A stretch of 41,768 nucleotides of DNA from an uncultured cyanobacterium (GTDB taxonomy: Bacteria > Cyanobacteriota > Cyanobacteriia > CACIAM-69d), in the NCBI GenBank assembly GCA_937883785.1, contig CALGDE010000148.1:1-41768 (forward strand), given 5' to 3'. A program made the translations under genes and the position numbers. A model generated the notes under the pieces. It made no database searches. It was not told the origin of the DNA and saw only the letters and a program-made list of their open reading frames with translations. Shown here piece by piece: positions 2,880 to 26,598 of this stretch (position 1 is the first letter of the stretch; the number at the start of each line of letters is the position of its first letter).

Positions 2880-5153
2880 TTACTGATCCACAAGCACCTT
2901 AGAAAAATCAAACTTAGGAGCCGCCAACACAAAGAGGGTGGTGGGTAAATCGGCAGTATTTCTCTGAAACTTGCTGTAATAATCCGCATAGGCTTCTGGG
3001 GTGTCGAAATAGTCCGCCATAGGGCTCGCCAACCCCAGCATCACCAGGTCCGCCCCGGCAGAAGATTCGTGCAGCACCTCTGGAAAAGCGCGATCGCCTC
3101 CAATTAAAATCTGCGACTCCAAATCCATCCGCAACTGCCCCACCAGGGTATCCAAATTCCCCTGGGCCGCTTCTGCCGCCGCATCATTAGGCACCATCAA
3201 CTTCAATACAATTCTTGCCCGCTGCCACTTTAAATCCGTGCGCAATAAATAAGCCAGCAGCACCATCAGCCCGCCATTATTTTGCAAGCCCCCCCACCAA
3301 ATATCGATGCGTTCTCGCCGCCCAAAGGTGGGGATTTCGTCGGGGCGATCGCCCCCGTTCTCCCCATCATCTGATCCGTCCCGCGCCCCATCCCGCAAAA
3401 CAATCAGACTGCGCTCCCCCTCGTGAATTTTACGAATCAGCTCACAATATTGCGATCGCCGCTCCTGATTTTCACTACTGCCCAACACCACCGTATTCGG
3501 CACCAGCTTCCCCAACCCATAGGCCTCCACCAACTGATGCGCCCCCACAAAAGGATCCGCCGCCGTCACCACCCGCACCAGCGCCTGCACATTACGCTTA
3601 TACAAATAATCCCGTAACAGCTGTTCCACCGACGCCCGCTGTTCGTCTCCCCGCGACCCCCTAGGCAAAACACTGCAAATCGTAACAATGCCGCGATTGT
3701 GGGTTAAATCATTCGCCAATTGAATCAACGCCCAGCGCCGATTGGGAGCCCCAGACATCACCAGCAAATTCGGCCGCCAGTTCTTCGGATCATCATTGCC
3801 AATTTGATACAGCCCCGCCCGCAACAGCGCCATCCATAACCCGCGCCGCACGTCCCCCCACGCCGTTTCCAGCTCCCGCCGCTGAAGCCAAAAATATAAC
3901 CCCAGCACTAACACGGCAGCCACAACGGTGGCCACACTATCAATTAAAAACATCACTGCCAAACAGCCGACGCCCCCCAACAGGGACCAAATCCAATTCA
4001 CCCGAAAAGAGGGGCGAAAGGACGGACTTTGCAAAAACCCTTCAATAAGAGCCACCACGTTCAGCACCAAATAAGTGGTGAGGAAAAACATGGACAGCAC
4101 CGGGGCAATCAAATCCAAATCGTTTAAAGCCACCGCCCCCAGTGCCACTACCAACGTCACCCAGGTGCCAATACGGGGCTCGTCATCTGCGCCGCGCCCT
4201 TTGCCCACAAAGCGCATCCAGTTGGGCAACACCCCATCTCGCGCTAACGCCTGCAACACCCGCGGCGCCCCTAAAATACTGCCGATGGCGCTGGACAAGG
4301 TGGCTCCCCAAATCCCCATCAAAATTGCTGGGCTCCACAGGGATAGGGTTTCCATGATGCTGGTGTCGTTAATCAGGGCATCCGGGTTGGCTTTGAAGGC
4401 AAATAGTAGGGGCAAAATCATATAAATGATGTAGCCGGTGATGGTGGCCGCCAAGGTGCCTTTGGGAATGGATCGCACTGGATCCGCCAAGTCTCCCGAT
4501 AGGTTGACGCCGGCCATAATGCCTGTCACCGCCGGGAAGAACACGGCAAAGACGCCCCAAAATGGTTCGCGATCACTGGTCCATAGGGCCACTTCTACGG
4601 TGGGTAAGGTGGGACCGAAGATGAAGCACACCAGGGAAATGGCGATCGCCGCCATAATAAAATACTGAGCCCGAATGGCGAGGCTAGCGGAGGTTAGGGC
4701 CAAAATTGCCACCGCAACGGTGGTAACAAACGCCACATATTGCTGATTTAAATTGGGAAAAACCCCCACCACGCTTTCGGCAAAACCAATGGTGTAGAGA
4801 GCCACGGAAATGGCTTGGGCAAAATATAGAGGCACCCCCACCGCTCCCCCCGCTTCGATGCCTAGGGAACGGCTGATCATGTAGTACGCGCCGCCGGTGC
4901 GCACCACCCGGTCCGTGGCGATCGTGCAGATGGATAGGGATGTCAGAAAAGTGATGGCGTTGGCCAGGGTGACGATGGCCAACGATCCCAATAAACCCAC
5001 ATTACCCACTACCCAGCCGAAGCGCAGGTACATAATGACCCCGAGAATGGTCAAAATTGACGGGGTATAAACGCCGCCAAAAGTGCCTAAACCGGTGCCT
5101 TTTGTTAAAACGACTGCGTCGGAGTTGGGACCGGGAGCGGCGGGAGTTTTCAT
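2880..5153 (-). CDS. SLC12-type cation-chloride cotransporter-like permease
   Basis: The protein has 757 residues from the ATG at 5153; an in-frame TTG at 5174 would add seven. After a short N-tail the APC/SLC12 signature GTFGGVYTPSILTILGVIMY begins transmembrane helix 1, followed by FGWVVG. About twelve hydrophobic helices occupy residues 20-450. A large cytoplasmic C-terminal domain with Rossmann-like segments (LLVMSGAPNRRW, ADLVMLGLASPMADYF) follows, as in NKCC/KCC-type proteins and their bacterial relatives. It probably moves cations with chloride, or amino acids, across the cytoplasmic membrane; the substrate cannot be read from sequence. A 15-bp tandem direct repeat lies just upstream. 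Confidence 0.82.
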   Translation of the reverse strand: MKTPAAPGPNSDAVVLTKGTGLGTFGGVYTPSILTILGVIMYLRFGWVVGNVGLLGSLAIVTLANAITFLTSLSICTIATDRVVRTGGAYYMISRSLGIEAGGAVGVPLYFAQAISVALYTIGFAESVVGVFPNLNQQYVAFVTTVAVAILALTSASLAIRAQYFIMAAIAISLVCFIFGPTLPTVEVALWTSDREPFWGVFAVFFPAVTGIMAGVNLSGDLADPVRSIPKGTLAATITGYIIYMILPLLFAFKANPDALINDTSIMETLSLWSPAILMGIWGATLSSAIGSILGAPRVLQALARDGVLPNWMRFVGKGRGADDEPRIGTWVTLVVALGAVALNDLDLIAPVLSMFFLTTYLVLNVVALIEGFLQSPSFRPSFRVNWIWSLLGGVGCLAVMFLIDSVATVVAAVLVLGLYFWLQRRELETAWGDVRRGLWMALLRAGLYQIGNDDPKNWRPNLLVMSGAPNRRWALIQLANDLTHNRGIVTICSVLPRGSRGDEQRASVEQLLRDYLYKRNVQALVRVVTAADPFVGAHQLVEAYGLGKLVPNTVVLGSSENQERRSQYCELIRKIHEGERSLIVLRDGARDGSDDGENGGDRPDEIPTFGRRERIDIWWGGLQNNGGLMVLLAYLLRTDLKWQRARIVLKLMVPNDAAAEAAQGNLDTLVGQLRMDLESQILIGGDRAFPEVLHESSAGADLVMLGLASPMADYFDTPEAYADYYSKFQRNTADLPTTLFVLAAPKFDFSKVLVDQ

Positions 5154-13913: not shown

Positions 13914-14735
13914 ATGACCGCCACTAACCCTGAACCCAGTCTTAATAAAGACCAGCTTTTGCTGACCGCCCGCGCCATGCTGGTATGCGGCGTAGTCACC
14001 ATCATCGTTGCCTTTGTTAACTACATCGGCTTACTGATTCCCTTTGAGCCCCTTGAGCAGTCCTGGCAGCAAGTATTTGTTAGCCGCCTTGTGGACTTGG
14101 GCATTATTCCCTTCATTGGTATTGGTTTTATTTTTTGGGGATTTTGGATCGAAGAACGTAGCTTGCAAAAACGCCTGCCGCGCCGGAAATTTAAAATCGC
14201 TGCCCTTAGCCTTGCCTTTGTTTTAGGTCTTGCTTTTCTACTCCTGTCTCCTTTGCATATTGTCAACGTTTGGAGCAGAAGCCGCGAAGTACTAGCACAA
14301 ATTACAACGGAAGCCCGTAGTGCGGAAGAGCGAGTAGAAGAGCAAATTCAATCGGAAGCCTTCCAAAGTGGTGTGGAACAACGCCAGCAAGCTCTAAGCC
14401 AGCAGGTGGACCAGTTGCTGCAGGATGAGGCAGCAGTGCAGGCTTTATTGGAGGGCGACGAGCTAACGGAAGAGCAAAAGGGTTTCTTGCGCCAAGCTCA
14501 ACAGGATCCAGAGCGCCTGAAGGCGTTTATCAGTTCTCAGACGGATCGCATACCGGCAGAAATTATTGGACGAATCCGTGAGCGGCGGCAGGAGTTGGAC
14601 GCGCGAGCCAGACAGGCGGCGTTCCGTTCCGGCGTTCAAACGGGTATCAGTGGTTTAATGCTGTCCGCTGGGTACATTGCCCTAGGGGCATCGGCCTTCC
14701 GAGGGCGTCCCAAAAGCATCAAGACGAAGCGTTAA
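13914..14735 (+). CDS. HpsJ-like membrane protein, first of a tandem pair
   Basis: The 273-residue protein has four hydrophobic segments, at about residues 18-45, 56-80, 92-115 and 243-262. Between the third and fourth lies a coiled-coil-like, Glu/Gln/Arg-rich stretch (about residues 120-235) with SAEERVEEQIQ and DPERLKAFISSQ. The conserved VDLGIIPFIGIGFIFWGFWI and LLLSPLHI motifs match the cyanobacterial HpsJ family, named after a hormogonium polysaccharide secretion protein. Its neighbour downstream is a paralogue. A role in membrane organisation or polysaccharide export is a family-based guess; no other hps genes are in the window. Confidence 0.7.
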   Translation: MTATNPEPSLNKDQLLLTARAMLVCGVVTIIVAFVNYIGLLIPFEPLEQSWQQVFVSRLVDLGIIPFIGIGFIFWGFWIEERSLQKRLPRRKFKIAALSLAFVLGLAFLLLSPLHIVNVWSRSREVLAQITTEARSAEERVEEQIQSEAFQSGVEQRQQALSQQVDQLLQDEAAVQALLEGDELTEEQKGFLRQAQQDPERLKAFISSQTDRIPAEIIGRIRERRQELDARARQAAFRSGVQTGISGLMLSAGYIALGASAFRGRPKSIKTKR

Positions 14736-14869: not shown

Positions 14870-15661
14870 ATGCGAGCATCAACAAAACGGCAGCCTGCTC
14901 CTCTAGCGTCCCGCATCCTCGTGGTGGTGGGAATTATCCTAATCGTCTCCTCCCTCCTCGACTTCTTTATTTTGGCGGTTCCCCTAGATATCCAAAACCG
15001 TCAGTGGCTACTGAGGTTTATTTCTGGGCTAGTGGATCGAGGAGTGGTGCCACTGGTGGGCATTGGATTGCTGTTTGGCGGAACGTGGATTGCCCAGCGC
15101 TCTGGCAATAGCAAGGGAAGCAGTTCGCCCTTGTTGGACCCCCGTTTTTGGGCACTAGTTCTCTCTCTGGCTTTAGGAGCGCTCTTTCTATTGCTGACGC
15201 CGCTGCACCTGAACGGTGTACGACTGCTGAGTGAAACTGAGCGAGAAAATATTGAAAGTCAGGCTGAGCAAGCTACTCAGCAAATTCCTGCCCAGGTGGA
15301 GCGCCTGAAGCAGCAGCTAAGGACATTGGCGGAGAATCCTGAGGGACTTCAGCGGGTGATTGACAGTGGCCAGGTGCCTCCAGCTCAGGCTGAGCGGCTG
15401 GAGCGGTTGAAGGCAGATCCAGGTTCGGTAGAGGCTCAAAGCCAGGAAATCGAGGCGGAGATTCGGGAGCAAATTAAGGAGCGACGGGAAGAGGCGCTGG
15501 AAGATTCTTCCACGCGTTTATTCCGATCCATGTTCACCACTGGTGCGAACAGCTTTGTGCTGGCAGTCGGGTATTTGACCATTGGCTGGTTTGGATTAAA
15601 GGGACGCGGTGCGAGTGCGCCTAAAAAATCCGCTCAACGCAAGAAAAAAAGCAAAGCTTAG
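14870..15661 (+). CDS. HpsJ-like membrane protein, second of a tandem pair
   Basis: The 263-residue protein shares the design of the upstream one: segments at about 14-38, 49-70, 84-106 and 220-245. The same landmarks recur, namely VDRGVVPLVGIGLLFGGTWI, LLLTPLHL and TGANSFVLAVGYLTIG. A long charged helix between segments 3 and 4 (about 115-215) looks like a coiled coil. The C-terminus is strongly basic (KKSAQRKKKSKA). The 134-bp spacing and similarity indicate an old tandem duplication, probably a single transcript ending at the terminator at 15853. The stop codon TAG is part of the left end of a repeat element. Confidence 0.7.
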   Translation: MRASTKRQPAPLASRILVVVGIILIVSSLLDFFILAVPLDIQNRQWLLRFISGLVDRGVVPLVGIGLLFGGTWIAQRSGNSKGSSSPLLDPRFWALVLSLALGALFLLLTPLHLNGVRLLSETERENIESQAEQATQQIPAQVERLKQQLRTLAENPEGLQRVIDSGQVPPAQAERLERLKADPGSVEAQSQEIEAEIREQIKERREEALEDSSTRLFRSMFTTGANSFVLAVGYLTIGWFGLKGRGASAPKKSAQRKKKSKA

Positions 15662-21490: not shown

Positions 21491-23779
21491 TTACCAAAGG
21501 CGCTGAATTTCTTTTTCCCGATAGCCCAGGCGCTCGGCGATGGATTTCACAATAAATCGATGGAAGGCGGACGCCAGCTCTGGGGCTTCCTTTTCCATTC
21601 GTTCAAAGGCTTGACCTGACAGATAGAACAAATGGCTGGGGCGATCGCCAATAATTGATGCGGATCGGGGGGCGTTTTGATAGAGTCCCAGCTCCCCCAG
21701 AACGGTGCCGGGGGTAAATTTACGTAGGCGCTTCGCCTTGCCATGGTCCGGCTCTAGCCATACGCTAACTCGACCGGATACCAAGAAATACAACCCGTCG
21801 GGGCGATCGCCCTGGCGAAAGAGATGCTGGTTCTTGTCGATGGAGATGGTTTTGAAGTAAGGCAGGATTTGCTCGATTTGGTTTTCTCCATCGAGAATGC
21901 GGAGGAAAATGCTTGTGCCCAACATGCCGCTGGTAGAGGTGTGGTCTTCGGTGACCTCCTCGGGGGCTTCCTTAAGCAGGTGATTTTCGCAAATTTCCAG
22001 GGCGCGATCCAGGTCAGGCACAGCAATACGGTGGGGATTGCTGTCCTTTAAAATGCCACTTTTCCGCAGCTGGGCTTCGTGCCCCCGTTCCAAATGGGAA
22101 AACAAGATATCGATATCGTATTTTTTCGCCAGCTGGCATAGCTTTAAAAAGCTGACGCTGGCGGAGGAATCTAAACCCCGCACCCGATGGAAATCGAGCA
22201 CCGCAAACTTTAACGGCGGCGCGTGGGGATCGTCAATACGCCCGCGCAGGCGATCTAAAAGCTGGTGGGCGGTGCCGAAGAAGATAAAGCCGTGCAGCTC
22301 CAAAATATAAATGGAGTCGCCGCTGTGGTTTAGCCAGCGCAGTTGGGCGGGCGATCGCTCTACGTTGGACCGCAAATGTTTCCCGGAAAACTCTCGCTTG
22401 GTTACGCCAATGCGGCTGTATTTGACGGCGAATAATAGGATGGCGGCGATCGCCCCAAAAACGATGCCCGGCAGCACCCCCAAAAAGGCAATCACCGTCA
22501 AAATCAACAGCACAATGCCGTAGTCGCTAAGGGGCATCTGCCGCGCCGTTTCCCAGGTCCACTCAATGAGCAGCGTGAGCCCGAAGAACATAATCATGCC
22601 CCCCAGTACCGGCTTTGGGAATGCCGCCAGCAGAATTGAACCGAACTGGAGACCAAAGGCAAAAAACAGCGCCGTTACTAATCCGGCCACCCGTCCGCTG
22701 CCCTTAAGCTTGGACGGCAAAATAGATAGTGATGGATCCGTGTAGCAGGGGAAGCCAGCGCCAAAGCTGGCCGCCAGATTTGCAGCTCCTACCGCCTTTA
22801 GCTCCCGGTCAATTTTGATGTCGTCGCCCACCGCCAGCTCGATGCCGCTAACGGTTAGCAGCAGGTCCAGGAGGCTAAGGACCACAACGGTGCCCATCCC
22901 TTCAATGTTGTCGAACACCGCCCCCCACTGGAGAGACTGCAACTGATCCCAGGGAATGGGACGCCATAGGCTGCCGCTGGGGATGGGATCCAGAAGCCAC
23001 CCGGCTTCGTAGGCCCCCTCCATGGAGATGCCCCCAATAAGGCGAGAAGTGTGAAATAGAACGATCACCACCGCCAAGCTGCCGGGGATTACGCTCCAGT
23101 GGTCGTACTTTTTTGATAGCCAGGTGAGGACGACGGCAAAGGCGACGGCACTAAGCCAGCGGGGCAGCACATCTATTCGGAATAAGTCGGGAATGGTGCC
23201 CCACTCCAAGGGAAAATCTGCCGTTACCGCGATCGCCCCACGACACAATAGCCAGCCCGTACCGGCCAAAAAGCCTCCAATAACCGGGTAGGGCACGAAG
23301 CGCACCACGGCTCCTAGTTTTAACCACCCCAGCAAAAAACACGACATTCCCACCAGGGCCGTGGACAGGGCAATCATCACCGTTACGTGCACCAACAATT
23401 CTTCCGGCGTCGCGTCGGGCCCCAATGACACCACCAGAGCCGATTCCAAAATTGCTAACACGGCGGCGGGGGTCTCCTGAGGCACGGCGATGGCATGCCC
23501 GGAGCTAAAAATTGCCACCAAGCCACTGACCATAAGCCCGCCAAATAGGGCTAAGCCGATTCCCAACGGGGCGAATTCCCCAAGGGCTCCGGAGAAAATC
23601 AAAATTGCAAAGGACAAGGACAGGCTAATGCCAATAATGCCGGCGATCGCCCCTGCGGCAAGTCCTGGAATAAGGCGGGGGGGAGATAGTTCCTGTTGAA
23701 TGCTCTTTAGGGGAGCTTGAAATAACGTCTTGGACAACGGGGTCGCTCCGTCGATGACATTGCTAATGACATTGAGCAA
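21491..23779 (-). CDS. SulP-family anion transporter fused to STAS and cyclic-nucleotide-binding domains
   Basis: The protein has 762 residues. Residues 35-450 form the SulP/SLC26 membrane domain (LIPGLAAGAIAGIIG; GFPCYTDPSLSILPSKLKGSGRVAGL; FLGVLPGIVFGAIAAILLF). A STAS domain (about 480-595) includes YILELHGFIFFGTAHQLL and LDFHRVRGLDSSASVSFLKL. A cyclic-nucleotide-binding domain (about 625-750) has HLFRQGDRPDGLYFLVSG and the phosphate cassette GELGLYQNAPRSASI with its Glu and Arg. It probably transports sulfate, bicarbonate or another anion, gated by cAMP or cGMP. The only available start at the open end is TTG at 23779; no ATG occurs before the membrane domain. Confidence 0.9.
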   Translation of the reverse strand: MLNVISNVIDGATPLSKTLFQAPLKSIQQELSPPRLIPGLAAGAIAGIIGISLSLSFAILIFSGALGEFAPLGIGLALFGGLMVSGLVAIFSSGHAIAVPQETPAAVLAILESALVVSLGPDATPEELLVHVTVMIALSTALVGMSCFLLGWLKLGAVVRFVPYPVIGGFLAGTGWLLCRGAIAVTADFPLEWGTIPDLFRIDVLPRWLSAVAFAVVLTWLSKKYDHWSVIPGSLAVVIVLFHTSRLIGGISMEGAYEAGWLLDPIPSGSLWRPIPWDQLQSLQWGAVFDNIEGMGTVVVLSLLDLLLTVSGIELAVGDDIKIDRELKAVGAANLAASFGAGFPCYTDPSLSILPSKLKGSGRVAGLVTALFFAFGLQFGSILLAAFPKPVLGGMIMFFGLTLLIEWTWETARQMPLSDYGIVLLILTVIAFLGVLPGIVFGAIAAILLFAVKYSRIGVTKREFSGKHLRSNVERSPAQLRWLNHSGDSIYILELHGFIFFGTAHQLLDRLRGRIDDPHAPPLKFAVLDFHRVRGLDSSASVSFLKLCQLAKKYDIDILFSHLERGHEAQLRKSGILKDSNPHRIAVPDLDRALEICENHLLKEAPEEVTEDHTSTSGMLGTSIFLRILDGENQIEQILPYFKTISIDKNQHLFRQGDRPDGLYFLVSGRVSVWLEPDHGKAKRLRKFTPGTVLGELGLYQNAPRSASIIGDRPSHLFYLSGQAFERMEKEAPELASAFHRFIVKSIAERLGYREKEIQRLW

Positions 23780-25024: not shown

Positions 25025-25531
25025 ATGTCATCTACTCCGCCGCGATCGCTGCCCCCTGATGCCCTACGCCGTCTGGGTCGGGTGCGATCCCTTGCCCGCT
25101 GGTTAGACCGCGCCATCACCATTCCCGGCACTAAAATCCGGCTAGGGCTTGATGCTTTGGTGGGACTACTGCCGGTGGGAGGCGACTTTATTGGGCTGGC
25201 AATGTCCATGTATCTAATGGTGGAAGCGGCACGGCTAGGTGCTCCGGCGGCGTTGTTAACAAAAATGGCGGCGAACGTGGCGGTAGATTTGGGTCTGGGC
25301 AGCGTTCCGGTAGCGGGAGATTTTGTCGATGTGCTGTGGCAGTCCAATTCCCGCAATGTGGAACTACTGGAAGAATTTTTGGTGGAGTCGGGAGAAACCC
25401 TAGAGCCCGACCCTGAGGTGCCGTGGGGGTTGTTAATTGGGCTATTGGTGTTGTTGCTGGCGGGGGCGATCGCCGTGTTGATTGTTGCCGGCTGGCTAGT
25501 GGGTGTGTTCTTTAGCGCAATTTTCAGCTAG
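25025..25531 (+). CDS. DUF4112 domain-containing membrane protein
   Basis: The 168-residue protein has the DUF4112 core IPGTKIRLGLDALVGLLPVGGD and then MAANVAVDLGLGSVPVAGDFVDVLWQSN, two related hairpins with PVGGD and PVAGD. A C-terminal transmembrane helix occupies about residues 138-165. The role is unknown. The short distance to trpC suggests co-transcription rather than a functional link. Confidence 0.9.
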   Translation: MSSTPPRSLPPDALRRLGRVRSLARWLDRAITIPGTKIRLGLDALVGLLPVGGDFIGLAMSMYLMVEAARLGAPAALLTKMAANVAVDLGLGSVPVAGDFVDVLWQSNSRNVELLEEFLVESGETLEPDPEVPWGLLIGLLVLLLAGAIAVLIVAGWLVGVFFSAIFS

Positions 25532-25653
25532 GACCGTTACGGCTGAAAATTTATGGGACTGCGCTAACAGAACTGCATTGATTAAGACTGCACCCACGGA
25601 ATTGAATATAGTCAGGGAAATACACGCGATAGAGACCGTAACGAGGTGTAACT

Positions 25654-26598
25654 ATGGCAACGGCGATCGCCCCCGATACTTCTGATATTCAGTCCTACAC
25701 TTGGCAGGGATTTCGATGCACCTACGAAAAATTCCCATCGCCTTCGGAGTCCCCGGACCAGCCGGCGCTACTGCTCATTCACCCCATCGGCGTCGGTTTG
25801 TCGCGCGGCTTTTGGACTCGATTTCTGCGGGCATGGCAACAGGAGGGCACCCCGGTCACGGTGTATAACCCGGACCTGCTGGGCTGCGGCGATGGGGATA
25901 TTCCGGATCGCCTCACCCGTCCCGAAGACTGGGCGGCACAATTGTGGCAGCTTATTGAAACGGAAATTAAGCGTCCAGTGGTGCTGGTGGTGCAGGGGGC
26001 GCTACTGCCGGTGGGGCTAGAGCTGTGGGCGATCGCCGATGCCAAAGGAAAAGGCAATACCATCCACTCCATGGTCCTTTCCGGTCCCCCCGCCTGGCGA
26101 GTCATGACCACCGTTCCCCCCACCTGGCAAAAGCGTCTGCTGTGGCACGGCTTTTTCCACTCTTTTATTGGCAACTTATTTTTCCGCTACGCCCGCACCG
26201 AGAAATTTTTGCGCAAATTCTCCGCCAAACAGCTTTTCGATAAGCCTGAAGATGTGGATCAGGAATGGCTAGAGATGATCTGCGCCGGTTCGCGGGACAT
26301 GGCGACTCGCCACGCCGTATTTTCTTTTTTGGCTCGCTACTGGCAGAAGGGCTACGGAGACGCCATGAAACAGTGCCCTATCCCCATACTGGCCATTTTT
26401 GGCGACGCTGCCTCCAGCATTAGCGACAACGGCAAGGGGGAAACTCCCGAAGATCGGGTCAAAATCTATGCTGAGGTTTTTCCCAACGGGAAGTCGCAGA
26501 AACTCCCTGGTCGCAATGTATTGCCCTATGAATCCACCACAGAATTCACCGCTGCTGTGGTGCAATTCTTACGGGATCAAGACATTGTGTCTGGCTAA
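25654..26598 (+). CDS. Alpha/beta-hydrolase-fold protein with degenerate catalytic triad
   Basis: The 314-residue protein starts at an ATG with a GAGGTG box. The fold markers are LLLIHPIGVGLSRGFWTRF (oxyanion region), VYNPDLLGCGDGD and a cap region with FHSFIGNLFFRY. Where the nucleophile elbow G-x-S-x-G is expected, the sequence reads VLVVQGALLPVGLEL, with Gly and no Ser. Near the end, where the catalytic His normally stands (G-x-G-H-x-P), it reads LPGRNVLPYES. The protein thus probably lacks ordinary hydrolase activity. It may bind a lipid or pigment ligand or act as a scaffold; this is inference. It ends before a terminator-like hairpin at 26732. Confidence 0.85.
   Translation: MATAIAPDTSDIQSYTWQGFRCTYEKFPSPSESPDQPALLLIHPIGVGLSRGFWTRFLRAWQQEGTPVTVYNPDLLGCGDGDIPDRLTRPEDWAAQLWQLIETEIKRPVVLVVQGALLPVGLELWAIADAKGKGNTIHSMVLSGPPAWRVMTTVPPTWQKRLLWHGFFHSFIGNLFFRYARTEKFLRKFSAKQLFDKPEDVDQEWLEMICAGSRDMATRHAVFSFLARYWQKGYGDAMKQCPIPILAIFGDAASSISDNGKGETPEDRVKIYAEVFPNGKSQKLPGRNVLPYESTTEFTAAVVQFLRDQDIVSG

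Follow-up and report, generated by a model that had tools for sequence, protein, structure and literature searches.

A conserved cyanobacterial alpha/beta-hydrolase-fold protein without a catalytic triad

We analyzed a contig of 41,768 nucleotides from an uncultured cyanobacterium (contig C148 of genome G000; hereafter, the window) and identified a gene for a 314-aa protein that keeps the alpha/beta-hydrolase fold and has lost the complete catalytic triad, with Gly115, Ala253, and Val289 in the columns of the nucleophile, the acid, and the histidine, respectively (Table 1). There is good evidence that the whole family has lost the canonical mode of catalysis. We favor a maintained pseudo-hydrolase, whose old pocket and cap would be preserved for non-covalent binding, and put the probability of this reading at roughly 50%. 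A general annotation would make this protein an alpha/beta hydrolase with a substrate to cut, which the sequence argues against.

Table 1. Features of the pseudo-hydrolase gene (positions in the window; residue numbers in parentheses)
Feature	Position	Strand	Basis
CDS, alpha/beta-hydrolase-fold protein without catalytic triad	25654..26598	+	ORF, Pfam, orthologues
GAGG, possible ribosome-binding site, 7 bases 5' of ATG	25643..25646	+	sequence reading; inference
HPIGVGLS (43-50), loop after beta3, where hydrolases have the oxyanion-hole HG motif	25780..25803	+	alignment
DLLGCG (74-79), C78 invariant	25873..25890	+	alignment
Nucleophile elbow VVQGALLP (112-119), Gly115 in nucleophile column, Gln114 preceding	25987..26010	+	alignments
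Cap region (145-240), with the highest conservation in the family; W164, Y179, W205, R219 invariant	26086..26373	+	alignment
Former acid loop GDAASSIS (250-257), acid column Ala253	26401..26424	+	alignments
Former histidine site GRNVLPYE (286-293), His column Val289	26509..26532	+	alignments

The gene, its orthologues and selection

The reading frame is intact from its ATG to the stop codon, and the reverse strand carries stops all along. The product matched Abhydrolase_6 in Pfam (3e-10), as did all 55 aligned orthologues, which confirms the fold assignment made earlier from the sequence alone. With the 314-aa protein (P0001), no NCBIfam model reached its cut-off or came near it, and the 55 orthologues gave weak matches, e.g., to bchO (5/55; best 1.8e-4). 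An Rfam search of the window returned no match.

Orthologues (match at 1e-20) were found in 133 of 388 genomes of the cyanobacterial class, i.e., in about one third, with one gene each (in two pieces in G284), and in all six genomes of the window's taxonomic family, where only a fragment at the edge of a contig represents the gene in G004. Scored with a profile built on 55 orthologues (A1), orthologues had values no worse than 5.6e-49 and the top-scoring other hydrolases 3.7e-26. This clean gap is occupied only by a relic in genome G353 (4.7e-35; see below) and the second pieces of broken orthologues. Within a phylum sample of 194 genomes, 51 matched at 1e-30, including the G353 relic, and among the matches listed, all belong to the cyanobacterial class. 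A scan of genome contigs with the single protein as query yielded two loci only, one fragment and one frameshifted, and three scans of viral contigs revealed no relatives. The family alignment comprises one sequence per genome from the 133 orthologues; denominators range from 128 to 133 because seven rows are partial owing to assembly or frame breaks (L008, L164, L166, L167, L169, L172, and L173). The orthologue of marine Synechococcus AG-673-F03 (L002:4995-5692) has a frame break right at the elbow, where the frames join at base 5123; this is either a single-cell assembly error or real. Narrow word matching in open-licence PMC literature retrieved no publication about a cyanobacterial hydrolase-fold family that lacks the triad, and the family is apparently an undescribed member of the known class of non-catalytic hydrolase-fold proteins.

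For 36 disjoint orthologue pairs (dS < 2), the median dN/dS was 0.119 and the maximum 0.296, i.e., purifying selection, which argues for a maintained non-hydrolytic family and not for a decaying enzyme. The alternative that the gene is a decaying pseudogene or that the reading arose by chance, for which the decayed relic in the single reduced genome G353 could speak, is refuted by the intact frame, the spread of the orthologues, and the low dN/dS.

Invariant polar and aromatic residues include D74, C78, Q114, W164, Y179, W205, R219, N288, and E293. In the loop of residues 43-50, H43 is present in 126 of 128 orthologues, and G46, V47, G48, and L49 in 128 each. C78 occurs in 130/130 orthologues, whereas relatives carry Trp (14/14) or Phe (11/12) there. 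Mean conservation amounts to 0.576 in the cap versus 0.524 and 0.533 in the core parts. The cap also scores highest in the related family B described below (0.731 versus 0.694 and 0.657) and does not in a canonical hydrolase set (A2; 0.605 versus 0.661 and 0.621), which is a weak control for the comparison of cap and core because it mixes subfamilies.

Triad columns and the Ser117 variants

The sequence-only reading had described an elbow without nucleophile Ser and a C-terminal site without catalytic His, and both motifs read as it had given them. Its count of two replaced triad positions was correct for the nucleophile and the histidine; in fact three are lost, as the acid column holds Ala in 126, Ser in three, and Thr in two of 131 orthologues. 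At the elbow, Q114 and G115 are each found in 131/131, A116 in 126/131, and P119 in 125/131. Column 289 holds Val in 127, Leu in three, and Ile in one of 131 sequences, within a G-[RK]-N-V context in which N288, P291, and E293 are each conserved in 131/131. The combined states of the 129 complete orthologues are G-A-V (121), G-S-V (3), G-T-V (2), G-A-L (2), and G-A-I (1), four rows being incomplete. In all 129 proteins, the nucleophile column lacks Ser, Asp, Cys, and Thr, the acid column lacks Asp and Glu, and the histidine column lacks His. An alternative acid after beta6 was not found either, residues 141-151 containing no conserved Asp or Glu (D144 in 10/132 orthologues). The nucleophile, the acid (after beta7 or beta6), and the C-terminal histidine of catalytic alpha/beta hydrolases are hence all missing. 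Conservation of a Ser-less elbow among orthologues had been proposed as the sign of a non-hydrolytic family; the invariant Gln-Gly pair, together with purifying selection, supports such a family.

The register of the elbow was consistent between methods. When 17 related cyanobacterial proteins were aligned with 16 members of the family in MAFFT, the Ser column of the relatives coincided with G115 in four of four modes, this column holding Ser in 16 of the 17 relatives and Ala in L191, and two hhalign profile-profile alignments, against A2 and against family B, gave the same register. In HMMER alignments to solved structures, G115 lies opposite the Asp of AQDWG in 3a2l and opposite Ser in 8cln and 8ynv; of the other two of the five structure alignments examined, 8clp agrees with 8cln and 4ns4 has a gap at the nucleophile. 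A nucleophile column at A116 or L117, as motif spacing would have it, was rejected, since MAFFT and both profile-profile alignments point to G115.

Position 117 is Leu in 103 orthologues, including the window protein, Ser in 23, Val in two, and Thr, Cys, and Ala in one each (n = 131), and a QGASxP-type Ser117 also occurs in the Synechococcus orthologue L002. Some members could thus be active hydrolases with Ser117 as nucleophile, which others, like the window protein, would have lost. We rejected this hidden nucleophile and regard it as very improbable: the Ser column of the relatives is 115, and the Ser117 members have neither acid nor His in their triad columns. In addition, a small residue at 117 is always paired with Ile120 (26/26, versus 1/105 for Leu or Val at 117), which indicates packing and not catalysis. 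The residue-117 trait changed at least eight times on the tree, and all five well-supported independent pairs agree with the 117/120 covariation in almost every pairing (sign test p = 0.0625, where n = 5 cannot reach 0.05).

Relatives, fold and possible role

The best non-orthologous matches belong mostly to a second degenerate cyanobacterial alpha/beta-hydrolase family, which we labelled B (alignment A5: L180-L192 and L014) and which is the nearest relative found. Family B shares the fold (profile match Prob 99.6) and has acid and histidine replaced by the same kinds of residues (acid column A12 T1 S1; histidine column V11 I2 F1; n = 14); however, it retains Ser in the nucleophile column (13/14) and has Trp in place of Cys in the DLxGxG loop (14/14). 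With Gly115, with Cys78 where family B reads DLxGWG, and on a separate tree branch, the window protein falls outside family B. The canonical cyanobacterial hydrolases of A2 resemble it in fold and length (Prob 99.8), but have Ser, Asp, and His where it has Gly, Ala, and Val; the motifs GNS[LI]G and GHCPHDE and the acid Asp are present in 11 of the 12 A2 rows, the twelfth being L014. Family B was detected in 71 of 116 genomes, often in two copies, some weaker matches possibly belonging to other families, and its occurrence is not associated with that of the triad-less family (30/43 versus 41/73 genomes; Fisher p = 0.17). A tree of 31 of the 133 orthologues, eight of the 14 family B sequences, eight of the 11 canonical ones, and L193 was built; a single branch (100/99) separated the triad-less family from all other sequences, and the same held for family B (99/99). 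The relation between the two and the root are unsure owing to long branches, so that the tree permits no conclusion on a single shared loss of acid and histidine. Separately, L193 (G024) combines the elbow ASSLG, in which Ser is kept, with WGRDN in the acid region (Asn) and GRSFPHLE (Phe for His), and perhaps represents a third degenerate family.

A structure model was built from a three-row alignment (A4) and is weak (mean pLDDT 57.9; pTM 0.62; cap pLDDT < 50). It predicts a strand at 109-114 and helix C at 115-130, with a pLDDT of 72 for the block 111-120. With its low confidence, the model is a weak test for a Ser or Asp nucleophile in the elbow; the alignments place Gly in the nucleophile column. 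Foldseek and VIA-align searches returned alpha/beta hydrolases throughout, with 3bdi as best match (Z 18.0) and the cofactor-free dioxygenase 2wm2 (Z 17.1), NDRG2 (Z 16.8), and NDRG3 (Z 16.6) among the others. Such closely spaced scores for a predicted model indicate the hydrolase fold only and not a function. Sequence profile and core fold, with the elbow between beta5 and helix C, place the protein in the alpha/beta-hydrolase superfamily.

Two non-catalytic proteins of this fold served for comparison. The plant gibberellin receptor GID1 is described as a non-catalytic hydrolase fold with a lid over its cavity and without the active-site histidine (PMC3531792). The likeness to GID1 consists in the non-catalytic fold and the lost His; GID1 retains gibberellin-contacting Ser and Asp, both lost here, groups with hormone-sensitive lipases, and is a plant protein. 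For NDRG3, PMC7022630 reports that every catalytic triad residue is replaced by non-reactive ones and that the function is non-enzymatic. The animal NDRG family shares the full triad replacement and the fold, whereas its pocket is described as blocked by helices and it is a human protein; the match is one of fold, and no NDRG family is among the Pfam hits of the window protein and the 55 orthologues.

By analogy with these proteins, the most likely role is the binding of a ligand or a partner in a GID1- or NDRG-like manner. The sequence-only reading had suggested a pseudo-enzyme acting as ligand sensor or scaffold; its non-hydrolytic part is supported, and the sensor or scaffold part is plausible by the same analogy. 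We propose that nucleophile, acid, and histidine disappeared from an ancestral enzyme of this fold and that the cap now covers a small molecule, probably hydrophobic, in a pocket that would be lined by the 43-50 loop, Cys78, Gln114-Gly115, and Asn288. The liganded cap may then dock to a partner, in the manner of GID1-type receptors, in which lid closure and partner binding depend on the ligand. Triad loss throughout the family, purifying selection, invariant motifs, and strong conservation of the cap are results of this analysis; an open pocket lined by the motifs, the ligand, the partner, and the signalling are inferred. These results speak for a maintained pseudo-hydrolase, as do the single branch of the family on the tree, the packing covariation of residues 117 and 120, and the hydrolase fold of the model. 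Binding under the cap is our first choice because the former active-site motifs and the cap are conserved together; against it stands that no ligand, partner, or conserved neighbor was found. A pocket is not seen in the model, given its low confidence.

We would rank a molecule under the cap first, a pure scaffold second, and unusual catalysis third. Cap conservation suits a protein-protein scaffold just as well, and an NDRG-like protein that acts purely as a scaffold or in a chaperone-like way, with a closed pocket and the conserved cap and loops as a protein-protein interface, is a tentative second possibility. The NDRG-like triad loss, the NDRG structures among the structural matches, and the cap as best conserved region fit this explanation. 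However, the Z differences are too small to favor NDRG, the fold does not reveal function, and an outer interface alone would not require motifs of the former active site (Q-G, GRN-LPYE, and HPIGVGLS) to be kept almost without exception. Rather unlikely is a non-hydrolytic enzyme, i.e., an isomerase, lyase, or dioxygenase-like protein, that would use His43, Cys78, Gln114, Arg287, and Asn288. All five are polar and show little or no variation (counts for H43, C78, Q114, and N288 above), and cofactor-free dioxygenases have the same fold. However, the dioxygenase entries listed include H251A variants titled catalytically inactive, so dioxygenase chemistry appears to need the His that is absent here, and no operon context points to a pathway.

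Genomic neighborhood and a decayed copy

Neighbors in the 3 kb flanks of 40 orthologues (out of 133) and in the window, i.e., at 41 loci, were clustered, and no conserved neighbor emerged. The largest non-self clusters covered eight and six loci, both apparently being frames that overlap the pseudo-hydrolase gene itself or run on its opposite strand, and the next covered five. Six neighbor genes, five from the window and one from G347, had no match at 69 loci with flanks of mostly 1.5 to 3 kb, where a control protein was recovered in 69/69. A link to trp genes, considered for the adjacent trpC in the window and a nearby trpD in G347, was dropped on this result. Between trpC and the pseudo-hydrolase gene, and on the same strand, lies a gene for a DUF4112 protein (25025-25531, +), a pairing that is not conserved across the 69 loci.

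The G353 relic (L177:4052-4513) is the sole decayed copy found. It covers residues 147-296 with in-frame stops and stands in the expected place after an intact trpD-like gene, which we take to be trpD. In the same genus (g147), the gene is intact in G347, and G383 has nothing at 1e-10. Intact Photo_RC genes are absent from G353 and G383, and G347 has six. Diatom endosymbionts are described as having lost nearly all photosynthesis genes (PMC11131595), and G353 and G383 would fit such endosymbionts. Loss of the gene alongside photosystem II is compatible with a link to photosynthesis and is weak evidence, because both genomes are reduced throughout. As a more speculative and improbable extension, the family could be an ancient undescribed hydrolase-fold receptor of oxygenic phototrophs (the cyanobacterial class) that senses an endogenous photosynthesis-linked metabolite, e.g., a lipid, isoprenoid, or pigment product; the Ser-bearing family B would then represent an intermediate on the way to the same loss. 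If so, the receptor would be a bacterial parallel to the plant hormone receptors of this fold. As a tightly constrained, single-copy, and operon-free family, the pseudo-hydrolases are good candidates for a cyanobacterial sensor or assembly factor that works without catalysis. Together with family B, they form a series (triad present; acid and histidine lost; all lost) that makes a path from enzyme to binding protein testable.

Two other loci of the window caught our interest. Two adjoining genes (13914-14735 and 14870-15661, +) encode membrane-like proteins without Pfam match that are apparently paralogues, judging from their similar start and layout. Furthermore, the sulfate-permease-like transporter encoded at 21491-23779 (-) combines a STAS domain and a C-terminal cyclic-nucleotide-binding domain in a single protein.
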